Assembly (NCBI GenBank): GCA_902826455.1
Contig: CADEEV010000004.1
Location: forward strand, 62,001 to 126,000
Source of the DNA: an uncultured Acidobacteriota bacterium
GTDB lineage: Bacteria; Acidobacteriota; Vicinamibacteria; Fen-336
Length of the DNA: 64,000 nucleotides
Direction of reading: 5' to 3'
Shown here in pieces: positions 2,014 through 11,696 of the stretch. Under the pieces are notes generated by a model that was given only the letters and a program-made list of their open reading frames with translations, was not told the origin of the DNA and ran no database searches. Position numbers and translations under genes: made by a program. Positions within the stretch are counted from its first letter, which is position 1, and every line of letters begins with the position of its first letter.

Positions 2014-4263
2014 ATGTTCAGCGTCGCCCTCGAGATGGTCCTGAACGTGGCGTTCCGCGAGGCCGTCACGCGCCGTCACGCCAACCTCACCCTCGAACAC
2101 CTGCTCTACGCGGTCGCGAACGATCCGGGCGGCGAGGAGATCCTGCGGGCCTGCGGCGTCGATCTCGAGCGTTTGCGCAGCGAGCTGCGACGCCACCTCG
2201 AAGAGCACGAGGAGCGCCTGCCCAAGGGCAAGGACCTCGAGCCTACCCAGACCGTGGCCTTCAAGCGCGTCCTCCAGGCCGCCGTGCTCCACGTCCAGAG
2301 CGCCGGCCGCGACGAGGCCAAGGTCGGAGACGTGCTGGCCGCGCTGCTGCAGCATCCGAAGGCCCCGGCGGCGCTGCTCCTCGCGGCCCAGGGCGTCACT
2401 CGCCTCGACGTCCTCAACTACATCTCCCACGGCGTGAGCAAGGTTCCGACCGGTGCCGAGGGCGACACGGCCGTGGGCGCGGGCTCCGGCTCCGACGAGG
2501 AGGGCGCGCCACGCCCCTCCCGCGACCCGCTGACGGCCTACGCGGTGAACCTCACCGAGCGCGCCCGAAAGGGCGAGCTCGATCCCCTGGTCGGCCGGCT
2601 GTCCGAGGTCGAGCGCGCCCTCGAGGTGCTGTGCCGGCGCCGCAAGAACAACCCCGTGTTCGTCGGCGAGTCCGGCGTGGGCAAGACGGCGCTCGTCGAA
2701 GGGCTCGCCCAGCGGTTGCTCGCCGAGGACGTTCCCGAGGTCCTGAAGGGCGCCGAGATCTTCTCCCTCGACAGCGGCGCGCTGCTCGCCGGAACGCGCT
2801 TCCGCGGCGACTTCGAGGAGCGCTTCAAGGCCTTGATGGCCGCTCTCGACAAGCGCTCGAAGCCCATCCTGTTCATCGACGAGCTCCACACCATGGTCGG
2901 GGCCGGCGCCACGACGGGCGGGACCATGGACCTCGCGAACATGGTGAAGCCGATCCTCACGGAGGGCCGCGTCCGGCTCATGGGCTCCACCACCTTCGAG
3001 GAGTTCAAGCACATCGAGAAGGACCGCGCCCTGTTCCGTCGGCTCCAGAAGATCGCGGTCGACGAGCCGTCGCGGGAAGACACGATCAGGATCCTCGAGG
3101 GTCTGAAGTCGCGCTACGAGAGTCATCACCGCGTGACCTACACGGAGGCCGCCCTCGAGGCCGCCGCACGCCTCGCCCAGCGCCACCTGCGCGAGCATCG
3201 GCTTCCCGACAGCGCCGTGGACCTGATCGACGAGGCGGGCGCCGCGCTGCGGCTGCGCGCCGCGGCGGACGCGCACCCGACGGCCGACGTGGCCGAGATC
3301 GAGAAGGTCGTGGCGCGCATGGCGCGCATCCCCGAGAAGCAGGCCACGCTGTCCGAGAAGGAGCGCCTGCGCACTCTCGAGGAGTCCCTGACGCGCGTGG
3401 TCTTCGGCCAGGAAGAAGCGGTCCACGCCGTCGCCCAGGCGATCAAGCGCTCCCGCGCCGGCCTCGGCCATCCCGATCATCCGGCCGGCTGCTTCCTGTT
3501 CACGGGCCCCACGGGCGTCGGCAAGACCGAGCTCGCGCGGCAGCTCGCGAAGCACCTCGGCAACGAGTTCCACCGCTTCGACATGAGCGAGTTCATGGAG
3601 AAGCACGCCGTGGCCCGGCTGATCGGAGCGCCCCCGGGCTACGTGGGCTACGAGCAGGGCGGCCTCCTCGTCGACGCCGTGCGCAACCATCCCTACAGCG
3701 TCGTGCTGCTCGACGAGATCGAGAAGGCCCACTTCGACCTGTTCGGGATCCTGCTCCAGGTCATGGACCACGCGACGCTCACGGACAACACCGGGCGCAA
3801 GGCCGACTTCCGCCAGGTCGTGCTGATCATGACGTCGAATGCGGGATCGCGCGAGATGAGCCAGAAGGCGATCGGCTTCGCGTCGGACCCCGAGAAGGAA
3901 TCGGCGAGCCGGGGCAAGCACGCCCTCGAGCGCCTGTTCAGCCCCGAGTTCCGGAACCGCCTCGACGCCATCGTGCGCTTCAAGCCCCTCTCGACCGCGG
4001 TCATGGAGACGATCGTCGAGAAGTTCATCCTCGAGCTCGAGGCGCAGCTCGCCGAGCGCCGCGTCGCCATCACGCTCACGCCGGAGGCGAAGGCCCACCT
4101 CGCGAAGAAGGGCTACGACCCGACGTACGGCGCGCGGCCCCTGGCGCGCCTCATCCAGGCCGAGGTGCGCGATCCCCTGACGGACCTCATCCTCTTCGGC
4201 ACGCTCGAGCACGGCGGCACGGTCACGATCGGACTCGACGGAGAAAAGCTGACTTTCTCCTGA
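2014..4263 (+). CDS. clpA: ATP-dependent Clp protease ATPase subunit ClpA
   Basis: The 749-residue AAA+ unfoldase threads substrates into ClpP, including N-degron proteins delivered by ClpS. The order is an N-terminal Clp repeat domain (about 1-140), an acidic linker, D1 with Walker A GESGVGKT at about 218-225 and Walker B near LFIDELHTM, D2 with Walker A GPTGVGKT at about 499-506 and Walker B VLLDEIEKAH, and a C-terminal small domain with YGARPLARLIQ. Length and order match ClpA, and there is no coiled-coil M domain as in ClpB. ATG 2014 is chosen because the product then starts MFSVALEMVLN and a -10-like TACAAT sits six bases upstream. clpP is not in the window. Confidence 0.96.
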   Translation: MFSVALEMVLNVAFREAVTRRHANLTLEHLLYAVANDPGGEEILRACGVDLERLRSELRRHLEEHEERLPKGKDLEPTQTVAFKRVLQAAVLHVQSAGRDEAKVGDVLAALLQHPKAPAALLLAAQGVTRLDVLNYISHGVSKVPTGAEGDTAVGAGSGSDEEGAPRPSRDPLTAYAVNLTERARKGELDPLVGRLSEVERALEVLCRRRKNNPVFVGESGVGKTALVEGLAQRLLAEDVPEVLKGAEIFSLDSGALLAGTRFRGDFEERFKALMAALDKRSKPILFIDELHTMVGAGATTGGTMDLANMVKPILTEGRVRLMGSTTFEEFKHIEKDRALFRRLQKIAVDEPSREDTIRILEGLKSRYESHHRVTYTEAALEAAARLAQRHLREHRLPDSAVDLIDEAGAALRLRAAADAHPTADVAEIEKVVARMARIPEKQATLSEKERLRTLEESLTRVVFGQEEAVHAVAQAIKRSRAGLGHPDHPAGCFLFTGPTGVGKTELARQLAKHLGNEFHRFDMSEFMEKHAVARLIGAPPGYVGYEQGGLLVDAVRNHPYSVVLLDEIEKAHFDLFGILLQVMDHATLTDNTGRKADFRQVVLIMTSNAGSREMSQKAIGFASDPEKESASRGKHALERLFSPEFRNRLDAIVRFKPLSTAVMETIVEKFILELEAQLAERRVAITLTPEAKAHLAKKGYDPTYGARPLARLIQAEVRDPLTDLILFGTLEHGGTVTIGLDGEKLTFS

Positions 4264-4270
4264 AAACCCC

Positions 4271-4298
4271 TTGACACGCGGCGGCGACCGCGTACCAT
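4271..4298 (+). promoter_or_regulatory. sigma-70-type promoter of the arginine operon leader
   Basis: A perfect -35 box TTGACA (4271-4276) is separated by 16 bases from TACCAT (4293-4298), giving a predicted start near 4305. It lies 8 bases after the clpA stop and is the only strong promoter before argC, which follows about 180 bases downstream. The leader ORF starts only a few bases after the predicted transcript end. Confidence 0.7.
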
Positions 4299-4308
4299 TC
4301 GGATTGCG

Positions 4309-4386
4309 ATGATGTTTTGCCCCGCTGTGCGACCGCAGGCCCGCGTCAGGCGAGTCCCGTGTGTCCAGCGGGGTGTCCGCATCTAG
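4309..4386 (+). CDS. candidate arginine-rich leader peptide of the arg operon
   Basis: A 25-codon ORF runs from ATG 4309 (or ATG 4312) to TAG 4384-4386. It contains six Arg codons at positions 8, 12, 14, 15, 21 and 24: CGA 4330, CGC 4342, AGG 4348, CGA 4351, CGG 4369 and CGC 4378. The middle reads RPQARVRR. There is no Shine-Dalgarno sequence, and the ATG is only about 4 bases from the predicted transcript start, so translation would be leaderless. The ORF spans the first two segments of the attenuator and ends upstream of the terminator, as expected for a control peptide sensing charged Arg-tRNA. The interpretation is inference from arrangement; an ORF this short can occur by chance in GC-rich DNA. 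Confidence 0.65.
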   Translation: MMFCPAVRPQARVRRVPCVQRGVRI

Positions 4387-4444
4387 TCCAAACGCTACAA
4401 GCGACCGGACTGGAGTGACCCGCTGGAGACGAACTCCAGCGGGT
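4319..4444 (+). promoter_or_regulatory. transcription attenuator with three alternative stems
   Basis: Three overlapping pairings are visible. Segment 1 (4319-4327, GCCCCGCTG) pairs with segment 2 (4366-4374, CAGCGGGGT, one G-U). Segment 2 (4364-4372, TCCAGCGGG) also pairs perfectly over nine bases with segment 3 (4419-4427, CCCGCTGGA), an antiterminator. Segment 3 (4418-4428) pairs with segment 4 (4434-4444) as the terminator. A ribosome stalled at Arg codons 8-12 would cover segment 1 and leave 2 free to sequester 3, allowing read-through. A ribosome reaching the leader stop would cover segment 2, allowing termination. A small extra hairpin (AGTCC/GGACT, 4385-4411) lies between segments 2 and 3. 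Confidence 0.72.
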
Positions 4445-4454
4445 TTTGCTTTTT
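4418..4454 (+). terminator. intrinsic terminator in the argC leader
   Basis: CCCGCTGGAG (4419-4428), loop ACGAA and CTCCAGCGGG (4434-4443) form a perfect 10-bp stem, extended by A4418-T4444. It is followed by the T-rich tract TTTTGCTTTTT to 4454. It ends 24 bases before the argC start, so it can only act on leader transcripts; clpA read-through would also meet it. Confidence 0.85.
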
Positions 4455-4478
4455 GCGTCTGTGAAGGAGGCGTTCCGG

Positions 4479-5450
4479 GTGATACGAGTCGGGGTCTTCG
4501 GTGCGACGGGCTACGCCGGGAAGGAGTGCGTCCGCCTGCTCGAGTCTCATCCGAGCGCGCGCGTGGCCTTCACGACCGGCAGCGGCGGCGCTCACCTCGC
4601 CCACGAGGCCGGACTCGACCAGGCCGCGGACGCCTACCTGCTCGCCCTGCCCCACGGCGTGTCCGCGAAGTACGCCGCCAGCCTGCGCGCCGCGCGGCCC
4701 GACGCCACCGTCATCGATCTCTCCGGCGATCTGCGGCTCGCCACGGCCGCGGCCTACAAGCACTGGTACGGTCACGAGCATCCCGCTCCCCAGCTCCTCG
4801 ACGGCACTCCCTACGGACTGACCGAGGTCTACCGCGATCGCCTGCCAGGCGCGCGGCTCGTCTCGAACCCCGGGTGCTACGCGACCTCCGTGCTCCTGCC
4901 CCTCGTGCCGCTGCTGCGCGAAGCCCTCGTCGACCCCGACGACATCGTCGTGGACGCGAAGAGCGGCGCCACGGGGGCCGGCCGCGCCCCCAAGGAGGAG
5001 CTGCTGTTCTGCGAGGTCGCCGACGATCTCTCGGCCTACTCCCCGGGCCGCACCCACCGCCACGTGGCCGAGATCGAGCAGGTCCTGCACGAGACCAGCG
5101 GCAAGACCGTGGCCCTCACCTTCTGCCCCCACCTGCTGCCGGTGAAGCGCGGCATCCTGTCGGCGCTCTACCTGCGGAGCGCCGCGTCCCCGGCCGCTCT
5201 CGCCCAGGCGCTGCGGACGTTCTACGCGGCCGCACCCTTCGTCCGCATCGTCGACGCGCCTCCAAAGCTCTCGGACGTCGTCCTCACGAACGACTGCCGC
5301 ATCTCGGTCCACGCCGCCGCTCCCGGGCGCGTGGTCGTCTTCTCGGCGATCGACAACCTCGTGAAGGGCGCCGCGGGCCAGGCGATCCAGAACCTCAACC
5401 GCTGCCTCGGCTGGGACGAGCGCGCGGGGCTTCCCGGAGGGAATGCATAG
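4479..5450 (+). CDS. argC: N-acetyl-gamma-glutamyl-phosphate reductase
   Basis: The 323-residue cytosolic enzyme reduces N-acetylglutamyl phosphate to the semialdehyde with NADPH, the third step of arginine synthesis. The N-terminus IRVGVFGATGYAGKE is the dinucleotide-binding loop. The catalytic Cys lies in NPGCYATSV (about Cys133), and KSGATGAGR and HRHVAEIEQ follow as in the family. GTG 4479 is chosen because AAGGAGG at 4464-4470 is an ideal ribosome-binding site and the Rossmann loop then begins at residue 4. It is the first structural gene of a seven-gene operon ordered C-B-D-A-G-J-H and is preceded by the attenuator. A LysY role is possible for the fold, but the argG and argH neighbours settle it. 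Confidence 0.95.
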   Translation: MIRVGVFGATGYAGKECVRLLESHPSARVAFTTGSGGAHLAHEAGLDQAADAYLLALPHGVSAKYAASLRAARPDATVIDLSGDLRLATAAAYKHWYGHEHPAPQLLDGTPYGLTEVYRDRLPGARLVSNPGCYATSVLLPLVPLLREALVDPDDIVVDAKSGATGAGRAPKEELLFCEVADDLSAYSPGRTHRHVAEIEQVLHETSGKTVALTFCPHLLPVKRGILSALYLRSAASPAALAQALRTFYAAAPFVRIVDAPPKLSDVVLTNDCRISVHAAAPGRVVVFSAIDNLVKGAAGQAIQNLNRCLGWDERAGLPGGNA

Positions 5451-6245
5451 ATGAGCGTCAGGAAGAACAACGCGACGGCCCTCCCGGTCCGGGTCTACAA
5501 GCTGGGCGGCCCGGCCCTCGAGGACCCGGCCCTCATCGCGCCTCTCGCCGCCGACATCCGGCGCTTTCCGGGTCACGTGGTCCTCGTCCACGGGGGCGGC
5601 CGCCACGTGGACCGGATGCTGCGCTCCCTGGGCATCGAGTCCCGCTTCGTGGACGGCCGGCGCGAGACGTCGCCCGCGGCCATGGAGGTCGTCGAGATGA
5701 TCCTCTCCGGCGTCGTCAACAAGGCCCTCGCGGCGGACCTCACGCGCGCCGGCGTTCCGGCGGTGGGGCTCTCGGGCCGCGATGCCGGCCTTCTCCGCGC
5801 CGTGCCCGAGCCCGCGTTCGGCCGCGTCGGGAGCCAGGTGCGCACGAACCCCGACGCGATCCTCGCCCTCTGGAGCGGGCGCTTCCTGCCGGTCGTCTCC
5901 CCCGTCTCGAACGGTCCCGCGGGCGAGGCGCTGAACGTGAACGCCGACGAGGCGGCCCTCGGGCTCGCGACGAGTCTCTTCGCCTCGTCCCTCGTGTATC
6001 TCTCCGACGTCGACGGCGTGAAGGTCGGCGGCGGCCTGAGCCAGACCCTCGGAGCGGCGGAGGCCCACGCCCTCACCGAGGACGGCACGATCAGCGGCGG
6101 CATGGCGCTCAAGGTCCGCGCCGCCCTCGAAGCCGCGCGTGCCGGCATCCCCGAGGTGGTGATCGCGGGCCGCACCCGTCTCGAAGGCGGCTTTGCCGGC
6201 ACGACGCTCTGTGCCGCGGCCACGGCCGTCGAGGCTCGGGCATGA
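5451..6245 (+). CDS. argB: acetylglutamate kinase
   Basis: The 264-residue amino-acid kinase family enzyme phosphorylates N-acetylglutamate. Visible motifs are KLGG (residues 17-20), the glycine-rich HGGG (47-50), the substrate-binding LNVNADEAA segment and the late GGMALKVRAALEAA motif. The start follows the argC stop directly, with GGAGG at 5436-5440. The stop overlaps the argD ATG as ATGA (6242-6245). No long N-terminal helix of the arginine-inhibited hexameric type is evident, so feedback inhibition by arginine at this step is uncertain. This leaves room for transcriptional control by the leader. Confidence 0.94.
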   Translation: MSVRKNNATALPVRVYKLGGPALEDPALIAPLAADIRRFPGHVVLVHGGGRHVDRMLRSLGIESRFVDGRRETSPAAMEVVEMILSGVVNKALAADLTRAGVPAVGLSGRDAGLLRAVPEPAFGRVGSQVRTNPDAILALWSGRFLPVVSPVSNGPAGEALNVNADEAALGLATSLFASSLVYLSDVDGVKVGGGLSQTLGAAEAHALTEDGTISGGMALKVRAALEAARAGIPEVVIAGRTRLEGGFAGTTLCAAATAVEARA

Positions 6246-7405
6246 GCGCGCTGCTCGGCGTCTACGATCGCGACCTCGTGCTCGTGCGGGGCAAGGGCTC
6301 GCGGCTCTTCGCGGAGGACGGACGCGCCTTCCTGGACTTCGCCGCCGGCATCGGCGTGAACGGCCTCGGCTACGGCGACGCGAAGGTCCTCGCCGCGATC
6401 CGCAAGCAAGCGGGCCACCTGATCCACGCCAGCAACCTGTTCCACACCGAGCCCGCCTCGCTCCTCGCCGACCGTCTCGCCTCCCTCGCGTTCCCCTCCA
6501 GGGTCTTCTTCTGCAACTCGGGCACCGAGGCCTGGGAAGCCGCGCTCAAGTTCGCCCGCAAGATCGGCCGCGCCGCCGGCCGCACCGAGTTCCTGTGCTT
6601 CGAACGCGCGTTCCACGGCCGCACCCTGGGCGCCCTGTCCACGACCTGGAACCCCAAGTATCGCGAGCCCTTCGAGCCCCTGGTTCCCGGCGTGCGCTTC
6701 CTGCCCTGGGGCGACCTCGGCGCCGTGGCCGCCGCGATCAATGACAAGACCGCGGCCGTGATGCTCGAGCCGGTGCAAGGCGAGGGCGGCGTGCGTCCCG
6801 CCACGGCCGAGTTCCTGCGCGGCCTGCGCGAGCTCACCCACGAGCGTGGCGCGCTGCTCGCCCTCGACGAGGTCCAGTGCGGCCTCGGGCGCACCGGCAA
6901 GCTCTTCGCTTACGAGCACGCCGGCATCACGCCCGACCTGCTGACCCTCGCGAAGCCCCTGGGCGGCGGCCTGCCCATGGGCGCCGTGCTGGTGGCCGAC
7001 GCTTTCGCCTCCGCGATCGCCGTGGGCGACCACGGCAGCACGTTCGGCGGGAACCCCGTGGCCGCCGCCGCGTCCCTGGCCGTCCTCGACCGCCTCGCGG
7101 CCTCCGGCTTCGTGCCGGGAGTCGCCCGGCGCGCGAAGACGTTGCGCGCCGGGCTCAAGAAGCTCCAGAAGAAGCACGCGGCGATCGCCGAGGTGCGGGG
7201 CCTCGGCCTGATGATCGGCGTCGAGTTCAAGGGCGAGGCCGGCCCGGTCCTGAAGGGGCTGCGCGAGCGCGGCGTCCTGGCCACCAAGGCCGGCGACCGC
7301 GTGCTGCGCCTGCTGCCCCCGCTCGTGGTGAAGGCGGCCGAGGTGCGTGAGTTCCTCGCGGCCCTCGACGCGGTCCTGGAAGGAGGCGCCGGTGCAGCTC
7401 CGTAA
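6242..7405 (+). CDS. argD: acetylornithine aminotransferase
   Basis: The 387-residue class III PLP aminotransferase converts N-acetylglutamate semialdehyde to N-acetylornithine. It starts at ATG 6242 in the ATGA junction with argB. Typical features appear in order: [60 protein letters not shown] and [15 protein letters not shown] with the PLP Lys at about 238. Length is normal for ArgD. The following acetyltransferase overlaps its 3' end by 14 bases. Related transaminases exist, but context fixes the role. Confidence 0.94.
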
Positions 7406-7907
7406 GGCTCGTCCCAGCGACGTCGCTCCCCTGCTGGCGATCATCGACGCGTACGCGAAGCGCGGCCTGCTGCTGCCGCGCAGCGAGGAGTCGCTGCGCT
7501 CGCGCCTCGACGACTTCCTGGTCGCCGAAGTCGCGGGCGAAGTGGTGGGCTGCGGCGCCCTCACCGCCCTCGGTCCCGGCGTCGGCGAGGTGCGCACCCT
7601 CGCCGTGCGGGAGGACCAGGCGGGCAAGGGCATCGGCCACAAGCTCGTCGAACGCCTGCTCGAGATCGCGGGCGACCGCGGCTTCGCCGAGGTGCTCTCC
7701 CTCACGCGGCGCGTGTCGTTCTTCGCGAACCTCGGCTTCGAGGTGACGCGGCGCGAGCGCTTCCTCGACAAGCTGGCGGCGGACTGTCAGGCTTGCCCGT
7801 TCAACTCCAACTGCGACGAGACCGCGATGGTGCGGCCGCCGCTGCGCGCCACCGCGGCCGTCGTGCCGCCCCGTCTCGTCACGAGCCTCGACAAAGGAGC
7901 CGCCTAG
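7392..7907 (+). CDS. argA: short-form N-acetylglutamate synthase (GNAT)
   Basis: This 171-residue GNAT acetyltransferase probably makes N-acetylglutamate from glutamate and acetyl-CoA. The acetyl-CoA loop region is VRTLAVREDQAGKGIGHKLV. The C-terminus has NLGFEVTRRERFLDKL and the Cys-rich signature DCQACPFNSNCDETAM, which I associate with stand-alone S-NAGS proteins. GTG 7392 is preferred, with AAGGAGG at 7380-7386. It overlaps the argD end and sits inside the arginine operon, matching the role. Because argJ downstream also has potential synthase activity, this enzyme may be anaplerotic. Confidence 0.85.
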   Translation: MQLRKARPSDVAPLLAIIDAYAKRGLLLPRSEESLRSRLDDFLVAEVAGEVVGCGALTALGPGVGEVRTLAVREDQAGKGIGHKLVERLLEIAGDRGFAEVLSLTRRVSFFANLGFEVTRRERFLDKLAADCQACPFNSNCDETAMVRPPLRATAAVVPPRLVTSLDKGAA

Positions 7908-7910
7908 GAC

Positions 7911-9130
<1,220 letters not shown>

Positions 9131-9134
<4 letters not shown>

Positions 9135-10315
9135 GCGTCACCGCTCCCCGCGGCTTCCGGGCGGCGGCGGTCGGGGCCGGCATCAAGAAGAGCGGCCTCG
9201 ACCTCGTCGTCCTGGCCGCGGACGCCGCGTGCCCGGCGGCCGCGGTCTTCACCACGAACCTGGCCCAGGCCGCGCCCGTCCTCGTCTCGCGCGAGCACCT
9301 GGCCACGGGCCGCGCCCGCGCGGTGGTCGTGAACGCGGGCTGTGCCAACGCCGGCACCGGCCCCCGCGGCCTCGCCGACACCCGCGCCACGGCCGAGCAC
9401 GCGGCGCGCGCTCTCGGCTGCGCGCCCCAGGAGATCGTGGTCGCCTCCACCGGCGTGATCGGCGTGGCGCTGCCGATGGACAAGGTGCGGGCCGGCATCG
9501 ATGCGGCGGTGCCGGCGCTCGGCCGCGAGCACGGTCTCGCTGCCGCCTCCGCCATCATGACCACCGACACCCGGCCCAAGCACGTGGTCGTCGAGTTCCG
9601 CTGCGGAGGCGCGCAGGCCTCGATCGGCGCGATGGCGAAGGGCGCCGGCATGATCGCGCCGAACATGGCCACGATGCTGGCCTTCTTCACGACCGACGCG
9701 GCGGTCGAGCCCGTGCTGCTGCGTCGGGCCCTCGTCGAGGCCGTCGGCGAGAGCCTCAACCGCATCACCGTGGACGGCGACACCTCGACCAACGACACGG
9801 CCGTGGTGCTCGCGAGCGGCGCGGCCGGGAACGTTCCCGTGTCGGGTCCCGGGGCCGACTACGATGCCCTCCGCGACGCCCTGACCGAGGCCGCGCGGGA
9901 GCTCGCCGAGATGATCGTGCGCGACGGCGAGGGCGCCTCGCGCTTCGCCGAGATCCGCGTGGAGGGAGCGCGCACCGCGGCCGACGCGGACCGCATCGCC
10001 CGCGTGGTCGCGGACTCACCGCTCGTCAAGACGGCCCTCCATGGCGGCGACCCCAACTGGGGCCGGATCCTCGCGGCGCTCGGCCGCGCCGGCGTTCCCC
10101 TCGACATCGCGCGCACCGACATCTTCCTCGGGGACGTCTGGGTGTCTTCGGCCGGTGCCGCCCGGGAGTACGACGAGGCCCTCGCCCACCAGGCCCTGCT
10201 CCAGCCCACCGTCCGCCTGCGCATCCGGCTCGGCGAAGGCACCGCGACTGGTTGGATCTGGACCTGCGACCTGAGCCACGGCTACGTGGACATCAACGCG
10301 CACTACCGGAGCTGA
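9131..10315 (+). CDS. argJ: bifunctional glutamate N-acetyltransferase / ornithine acetyltransferase
   Basis: The 394-residue self-cleaving Ntn-type enzyme transfers the acetyl group of N-acetylornithine to glutamate, recycling it. The maturation site is MIAPNMATMLAF with the nucleophile Thr at about residue 181. TVDGDTSTNDT follows in the beta chain, and the C-terminus HGYVDINAHYRS is family-typical. GTG 9131 overlaps the argG stop. Its presence means the pathway is cyclic, so the operon's separate acetylglutamate synthase would only prime the cycle. Whether ArgJ is mono- or bifunctional cannot be told from sequence by eye. Confidence 0.94.
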
Positions 10316-10325
10316 GACGCGGCCG

Positions 10326-11696
10326 ATGAAACTCTGGGGCGGCAACTACTCGACGGATCCGGATCGCGCCTTCTGGAACTTCAACCAGTCCTTCTCCTTC
10401 GACCAGCGCCTGCTGGCCGAGGAGGTGGCGGCCTCGCGTGCCTACGTGCGCGCCCTCGGCCGCTGCGGCGCGCTGCCGGCCGCCGATGCGGCCGCGCTCG
10501 ACGCGGGTCTCGAGCAGGTGCTGGCTCAGGCGCGCCTCGAGCCCGAGCGCCTGGCCCTCGACGCCGAGGATGTCCACAGCTTCGTCGAGACCCGCCTCAA
10601 CGAGGTGGTAGGCGATCTCGCCGGCCAGGCCCACCTCGGCCGCAGCCGCAACGAGCAGTCGGTCACGGCGCTGCGGCTCTGGATCCGCGCCACGATCGAC
10701 GCGCTGCGCGACGCGCTCCGGGGGCTCGGCCTCGGCCTGGTGGCCCAGGGGCGCAAGGGGCACGACCTGGTGATGCCCGGCTACACCCACACGCGCGCCG
10801 CGGAGGCCATCACGTTCGGGCATCTCGCGGCCGCCCACGCCTGGCCCCTGGTGCGGGACTTCGAGCGCCTCGGCGAGGCACGGCGCCGCGTGAACGTGCT
10901 CCCGCTGGGCTCGGGCGCTCTCGCCGGGACGGCCCTCCCCCTCGATCGCGAGGCGCTCGCGGCGGAGCTCGGCTTCGAGGCGGTCTCGGGCAACGCCCTC
11001 GACGCGGTGAGCGACCGCGACTTCGTGTCGGAGTTCGTGTTCTGCTGCGCCCAGGTCCAGATCCACCTGTCGCGTCTCTGCGACGACCTGATCCGCTTCT
11101 CGGGCCCGGAGCACGGCTTCGTGACGCTCCCCGAGGCCTTCACGACCGGCTCGAGCCTGATGCCGCAGAAGAAGAACCCCGACGCCCTCGAGCTGGTGCG
11201 GGGCAAGTCGGGCCGCGTCCTCGGCGACCTCGTGGCCCTGCTCACGATCCTGAAGGGGATCCCCGCCGGCTACCAGAAGGATCTGCAGGAAGACAAGGAA
11301 GCGGTCTTCGACGCGGCCGACACGACGCTCGCCTCGGTCGGCGTGATCGGCGGCGTCGTGTCTGGCCTCGCCCTGCGTCCCGAGGCCATGCGCGCCGCGG
11401 CCGGCACCGAAGGCCTCATGGCGGCGGGCCTGGCCGTGGCTCTCGCCCGCGAGGGCCTGCCCTTCCGGAAGGCCCACGCGCTCGTCGGGTCCTTGGTGGG
11501 CGAGGCGGAGCGCAACGGCGAGAGCCTCCTGGCCGCCGCCCGCCGCGTCCTGCCGCAGCACTCGCCCGCCGTCGCGGGCCGCCTCGACGCCCTCTTCGAC
11601 CCGGCCCAGGCCGTGCAAACGAAAGCGGCGGCCGGGGGCACCGCCCCGGCCGCCGTGAGCGCGTCTCTCGACCAGATCGAGGCGAGACTGCGCTAG
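10326..11696 (+). CDS. argH: argininosuccinate lyase
   Basis: The 456-residue fumarase-fold lyase releases fumarate and arginine. MKLWGGNY at the N-terminus, HSFVETRL, the AGQAHLGRSRNEQS segment and the signature GSSLMPQKKNPDALELVRGK (catalytic Ser near 276) are all present. It is the last gene of the operon, 10 bases after argJ. The gene ends 6 bases before the convergent BON-LysM gene, and no terminator hairpin is seen between them. Confidence 0.96.
   Translation: MKLWGGNYSTDPDRAFWNFNQSFSFDQRLLAEEVAASRAYVRALGRCGALPAADAAALDAGLEQVLAQARLEPERLALDAEDVHSFVETRLNEVVGDLAGQAHLGRSRNEQSVTALRLWIRATIDALRDALRGLGLGLVAQGRKGHDLVMPGYTHTRAAEAITFGHLAAAHAWPLVRDFERLGEARRRVNVLPLGSGALAGTALPLDREALAAELGFEAVSGNALDAVSDRDFVSEFVFCCAQVQIHLSRLCDDLIRFSGPEHGFVTLPEAFTTGSSLMPQKKNPDALELVRGKSGRVLGDLVALLTILKGIPAGYQKDLQEDKEAVFDAADTTLASVGVIGGVVSGLALRPEAMRAAAGTEGLMAAGLAVALAREGLPFRKAHALVGSLVGEAERNGESLLAAARRVLPQHSPAVAGRLDALFDPAQAVQTKAAAGGTAPAAVSASLDQIEARLR

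Follow-up and report, generated by a model that had tools for sequence, protein, structure and literature searches.

The window, that is, the whole 64,000-nucleotide stretch of Acidobacteriota DNA analysed here, carries an arginine biosynthetic operon with the gene order argC-B-D-(GNAT)-G-J-H. Upstream lies clpA, which is oriented in the same direction as the operon and ends at 4263. The interval between clpA and argC holds a promoter, a short open reading frame (ORF), RNA segments with alternative pairings, and an intrinsic terminator that sits between this leader ORF and argC. These features, and the genes that follow them, are listed below.

4271–4298, + strand: sigma-70-type promoter TTGACA-16-TACCAT (TTGACA at 4271–4276, TACCAT at 4293–4298)
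4309–4386, + strand: putative leader ORF MMFCPAVRPQARVRRVPCVQRGVRI, 25 codons plus TAG, kept in 10/10 homologues
4319–4327, + strand: segment 1, pairs with 4366–4374
4348–4353, + strand: candidate regulatory tandem Arg codons AGG-CGA, codons 14–15; Arg-Arg here in 10/10
4364–4372, + strand: segment 2 as 5' arm of the antiterminator, pairs with 4419–4427
4366–4374, + strand: segment 2 in the 1:2 register, pairs with segment 1 (4319–4327)
about 4384–4414, + strand: stop-codon hairpin, nested in the loop of the 2:3 antiterminator
4418–4454, + strand: intrinsic terminator, 11-pair stem 4418–4428/4434–4444 with loop ACGAA, then TTTTGCTTTTT
4419–4427, + strand: segment 3 as 3' arm of the antiterminator, pairs with 4364–4372
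4464–4470, + strand: AAGGAGG, ribosome-binding site of argC, seen directly
4479–5450, + strand: argC, GTG start, first gene of the operon (ArgC homologues; TIGR01850, E 6.7e-99)
5451–11696, + strand: remaining operon genes, argB to argH
5451–6245, + strand: argB
6242–7405, + strand: argD-like gene (argD-type aminotransferase)
7347–7907, + strand: GNAT acetyltransferase
7911–9134, + strand: argG
9131–10315, + strand: argJ
10326–11696, + strand: argH

The promoter, the 25-codon ORF with its six Arg codons and the three mutually exclusive pairings (9, 9 and 11 pairs) had been proposed in a sequence-only reading of this DNA, and all were recovered at the positions given there. Stem 1:2 (4319–4327/4366–4374) has nine pairs, one of them G-U, and stem 2:3 (4364–4372/4419–4427) has nine Watson–Crick pairs. 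The antiterminator (2:3) shares segment 3 with the terminator (3:4), while the 1:2 protector hairpin excludes the antiterminator. The nested hairpin around the UAG stop codon, which was absent from that reading, was found in all ten leaders compared.

These parts are unlikely to arise by chance in a sequence of this composition. The promoter is the sole sigma-70-like site in the first 20 kb of the window, where shuffles give 0.3. Folding of the leader (4305–4455) returned a z-score of -5.24, with no equally stable structure among 200 shuffles (0/200). Dinucleotide shuffles of 4299–4455 yielded a nine-pair terminator with U tract in 0/2000 cases, nor did they yield the nested set of three stems. 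A transcription start at about 4305 is predicted, which would make the leader ORF near-leaderless.

The same arrangement of parts recurs in nine relatives. The ArgC of the window served as query to assemble a homologue set. It comprises the window's own genome and nine more from its family of soil Acidobacteriota, ten in all, each with a close ArgC and sufficient DNA upstream of it; the ArgC proteins of the relatives are 65–74% identical to that of the window. Three of the ten leaders come from one genus, and the rows of the alignment are not independent. All ten leaders have a TTGACA-type promoter with a TATNNT-type -10 element, a leader ATG 37–42 nt after TTGAC and, before argC, a hairpin followed by a T tract (U tract in the RNA). 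The parts, their geometry and their conservation are thus documented by comparison as well as by the sequence of the window, as is the absence of ArgR described below.

Changes in the leader ORF among relatives are suggestive of a translated sequence. Its length ranges from 23 to 34 codons, all length differences are in-frame multiples of three, and synonymous changes of Arg codons are seen among the ten leaders. The peptides fall into two subgroups of seven and three leaders, exemplified by MFLPPAVRPQARVRRGPCVRRGEPV and MTTLLAKRMRLSTRRYPCARRAATALGRGVTGA, which share Arg-Arg-x-Pro but little else beyond the second Arg pair. Retention of the ORF and its Arg codons in relatives had been set beforehand as a test, and both the ORF and the tandem Arg pair are present in 10/10. 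Every one of the ten pairs opens with AGG, and its second codon is CGA, CGC or AGG. Seven window genes together contain 219 Arg codons, of which AGG accounts for 2.3% and CGA for 1.8%, compared with 69% for CGC. Arginine makes up 18–30% of leader codons versus 8.1% in neighbouring genes. Of the three reading frames, frame 0 is the richest in Arg codons in eight of the ten leaders, tied in one and lower in one. Downstream of the pair, all ten leaders keep a Pro codon and nine keep a second Arg pair. The invariant Pro is beyond what codon sensing alone explains.

The position of the Arg pair relative to the antiterminator is also maintained. In the window, the 5' arm of the antiterminator begins 16 nt past the first regulatory Arg codon, and across the family this distance is 16–17 nt in nine leaders and 14 nt in one. 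With such spacing, the antiterminator would begin just beyond the RNA covered by a ribosome that has stalled at the Arg pair. When a ribosome was modelled with AGG in its A site and the RNA between its front edge and the 3' limit of segment 3 was folded, a 2:3 stem of 8–10 pairs formed in 10/10 leaders, in every case with the nested hairpin holding the stop codon inside it. The geometry had been read earlier as that of trp/his-type attenuators. That reading stands insofar as completion of the ORF would cover segment 2 and a stall would free the antiterminator; it does not stand in its proposal that the stalled ribosome covers segment 1. A ribosome on AGG-CGA would cover about 4330–4362, which lies 3' of segment 1, and the stall would therefore act by separating segment 1 from segment 2.

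Covariation, which the same reading had put forward as a check, gave an answer that differs between stems. Stem 1:2 is paired in 97.1% of cells and stem 3:4 in 97%, each with two pairs changed on both sides, and the 1:2 stem of the second subgroup leans more on G-U pairs. In the stop-codon hairpin, three positions show compensatory change: U-A is replaced by G-C at stop-2 and stop+3, and C-G by U-A at stop+4. Stem 2:3 is paired in 95.6% of cells, against at most 54.4% in slid controls, but it is nearly invariant and the shuffle test (413/500) gives no covariation support. Because of this near-invariance, covariation neither supports nor refutes stem 2:3. When the whole leader was folded, the terminator was more stable even with a ribosome placed on the Arg pair, which means that the switch must be kinetic. 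Kinetic switching is accepted for the trp attenuator.

From these features we infer a start site, translation of the leader ORF, stalling on the Arg pair and a response to arginine, which would work together as follows. When arginyl-tRNA is plentiful, the leading ribosome would pass AGG-CGA and reach the UAG, opening the stop-codon hairpin and covering segment 2. With segment 2 covered, the 3:4 terminator would form and transcription would end near 4454. When arginyl-tRNA is scarce, the ribosome would stop on the Arg pair, its front edge reaching about 4361–4363 and leaving segment 2 free; this would hold for a ribosome on either Arg codon. The stop-codon hairpin could then fold and draw segments 2 and 3 together, so that 2:3 would form before segment 4 is made and the polymerase would continue into argC. 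If the leader is not translated at all, stem 1:2 would form and termination would be the default.

The genomic context of this leader differs from that of most arginine operons, which are the textbook case of control by the repressor ArgR. The earlier observation that the window holds no argR extends much further: the ArgR domain (PF01316) is absent from the window's own genome and from every genome sampled in the order (0/17), 14 of them belonging to the family and three to a sister family. ArgR control of the operon was therefore rejected. Among sampled genomes from the rest of the class, ArgR is present in 41 of 43, and there argR is often found divergent beside argC, with TATAAATATNC-like repeats seen directly between the two genes.

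The distribution of the leader is narrower than that of ArgR absence. A covariance model (R1) built from the ten leaders was run on a phylum sample of 396 genomes, where three genomes of the family scored 130–139 bits and no other exceeded 41 bits; the window's own genome has one strong match. The search for further Arg attenuators in this sample returned no strong match beyond the family. Those weak matches that were examined were rejected as Arg attenuators, being terminators or leaders for other amino acids. A pattern scan of genome contigs pointed to four Acidobacteria metagenome genomes, and its five matches in other phyla were taken as chance. Upstream regions of argC in Acidobacteriota without detected ArgR (f16, f19, f20, f24, f66, f75 and f77) gave no tandem-Arg leader with a terminator. 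In the sister family (f2), two of the three genomes have a terminator before argC, but a tandem-Arg ORF was found in none. Together, the R1 scores and the negative upstream searches indicate that, within the sampled genomes, the attenuator is a family-level rather than a phylum-wide element.

Two further observations concern these lineages. The hairpin of the sister family (L101 and L103; also L026 and L024) has the form GACCCGC...GCGGGTC and is followed by a T tract; it precedes argC, where no tandem-Arg leader is present. In addition, ACGAGGTCATAAGACAC lies just upstream of argC in all three f2 genomes. This hairpin is possibly another control element in a lineage that lacks ArgR. Within the family of the window, two genomes that are 96–98% complete (G002 and G004) have no true ArgC, only matches at E values of about 1e-3 to 1e-4, which suggests that some genera of the family lost arginine synthesis.

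A conserved leader of this kind could also be read in other ways. The peptide itself might arrest the ribosome, with an RR-x-P-x-x-RR motif that stalls in the presence of free arginine or a related metabolite, in which case the fold would be set by where the ribosome stalls and not by tRNA charging; the fungal arginine attenuator peptide and SpeFL are models for such behaviour. The retained Pro (10/10) and second Arg pair (9/10) fit this explanation, and a stall over segment 2 at high arginine would likewise lead to termination. However, residues other than Arg and Pro vary, with little else shared between the subgroups (RVRRGPCVRRG compared with STRRYPCARRA). The codons of the second pair fall within segment 2, where they are constrained by base pairing, and the first pair is located where codon stalling requires it. 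Peptide arrest is thus considered improbable. The leader might instead be a riboswitch, in which the 1:2 hairpin and its internal arms bind arginine or another ligand and set the terminator directly, leaving the ORF as a fortuitous feature. This idea draws on the 97% pairing of 1:2 across all ten leaders and on a long stretch of the 1:2 loop that is conserved in most members of the first, seven-leader subgroup. In the second subgroup, with its three leaders, the loop is different, though the Arg codons remain; length changes come in multiples of three, Arg codons change synonymously, and Rfam matches none of it. A riboswitch is consequently very unlikely. Rfam gave no sign of a T-box either, since no family reached its gathering score in the window and none was plausible at E values up to 10 over 4200–4600.

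The last reading to be weighed is that of an ordinary terminator, belonging to the upstream gene or to a small RNA, with a coincidental link to arginine. In its favour, clpA in the window is co-directional and ends at 4263. Yet in eight of the nine relatives the upstream gene is divergent and acyl-CoA-dehydrogenase-like (its identity assigned by eye from sequence), so the terminator cannot serve the upstream gene there, and promoter, ORF and terminator nonetheless persist. The terminator is also placed downstream of the promoter, and only the Shine–Dalgarno sequence separates it from argC. There is very little chance that this explanation is correct. With high confidence, we class the leader as a ribosome-mediated transcription attenuator of the trp/his type, which would read arginyl-tRNA through an AGG-led Arg pair and control argC to argH in a lineage without ArgR.

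Leaders that resemble attenuators for other amino acids were encountered elsewhere in the phylum. The window's own genome has one at L083 (G000:C28:46977-47113), where the ORF MTVLRNMCCCCQAPGAPGVFGHVAFEGLSS (ending in a stop codon) contains four TGT Cys codons and is followed by the hairpin GGCCCGGG and a T tract; it precedes a PAPS-reductase (cysH-like) gene, and TGT is locally rare (2/22 Cys codons). In other Acidobacteriota, L063, L071, L076, L079 and L080 each combine a terminator with a leader ORF in which His codons occur in runs (MQIRTHHRHAHHHHVTNVSADSSGL, ending in a stop codon, is one example), and a HisI-like protein (named by eye from sequence) is encoded downstream in L063, L071, L076 and L080. 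Judging from sequence, these five leaders are probable his attenuators. L067 and L068 contribute a leader with three Trp codons (GYWWWRQ) before a trpE-like gene and MAMCCCRRTWDGSPAVAFVS (ending in a stop codon), with Cys codons, before a cysteine-synthase-like gene. Weak R1 matches also include leaders with Cys codons before cysteine or sulfate-assimilation genes, and these genes, like the trpE-like one, were named by eye. The presence of His-, Trp- and Cys-codon leaders means that codon-reading attenuators are probably in regular use in the phylum, which makes an arginine version credible.

Codon-reading transcription attenuators have been described for the his, trp, thr, ilv, leu and phe operons and, in some groups, for cys operons, while RNA-level control of arginine genes is known through T-boxes. 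Like the trp and his attenuators (the Yanofsky type), the leader examined here combines a short ORF containing tandem codons for the pathway product with a 1:2 protector, a 2:3 antiterminator, a 3:4 terminator and the same stall logic, and it matches every feature of those systems that sequence can test. It differs from them in having a rare-codon Arg pair as the putative sensor, in its predicted near-leaderless ORF, and in the extra stop-codon hairpin inside the antiterminator. What would be new is arginine as the signal for this mechanism, at an operon that ArgR normally controls, and in a lineage devoid of ArgR.

Several known systems share individual elements with this leader. In the speF leader of Salmonella and E. 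coli, consecutive Arg codons (AGG-CGG, positions 12–13) of orf34/speFL sense arginine and choose between RNA folds, and a ‘downstream of stop’ hairpin takes part (PMC6386406). However, that leader regulates ornithine decarboxylase through Rho, RNase G and Shine–Dalgarno sequestration, rather than through an intrinsic terminator before arginine biosynthesis (PMC6386406). In Staphylococcus aureus, rare Arg codons (AGA and AGG) in the leader peptide rbfL cause pausing at low arginine, but the outcome is a block of the rbf ribosome-binding site, such that low arginine represses translation, with no terminator/antiterminator switch and no biosynthetic operon (PMC13009471). Arg-specific T-box leaders similarly place arginine genes under RNA-level control (PMC1262725). 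T-boxes, unlike the leader described here, work without a leader ORF, by direct binding of uncharged tRNA, and there is no T-box match at this locus. ArgR and its ARG boxes control the same operon but act through a DNA-binding repressor, none of which was found in this order. A survey of Actinobacteria reported no RNA element before arginine operons and mentioned arginine T-boxes elsewhere (PMC1262725). The sequence-only reading knew of no well-described Arg-codon attenuator of this kind, and likewise no Arg-codon transcription attenuator of an arg operon was found in the open-access papers searched, although subscription papers could hold one.

A broader reading, which we favour with only moderate confidence, is that the whole family swapped ArgR for an Arg-codon attenuator that specifically senses the tRNA for AGG, from a near-leaderless ORF and with a stop-codon hairpin aiding the antiterminator. 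That would make it the first case in which Arg codons attenuate transcription of an arginine biosynthetic operon. Such an element would help to fill in a phylum where a 2010 survey found almost no predicted attenuators with an assigned function (PMC2965389). Because the order lacks ArgR and one family within it has an Arg attenuator at the same operon, the change of regulator could be placed on the tree. The family may also serve as a natural test case for the possible reasons behind rare codons in attenuation, and for the way in which leaderless ORFs sustain it.
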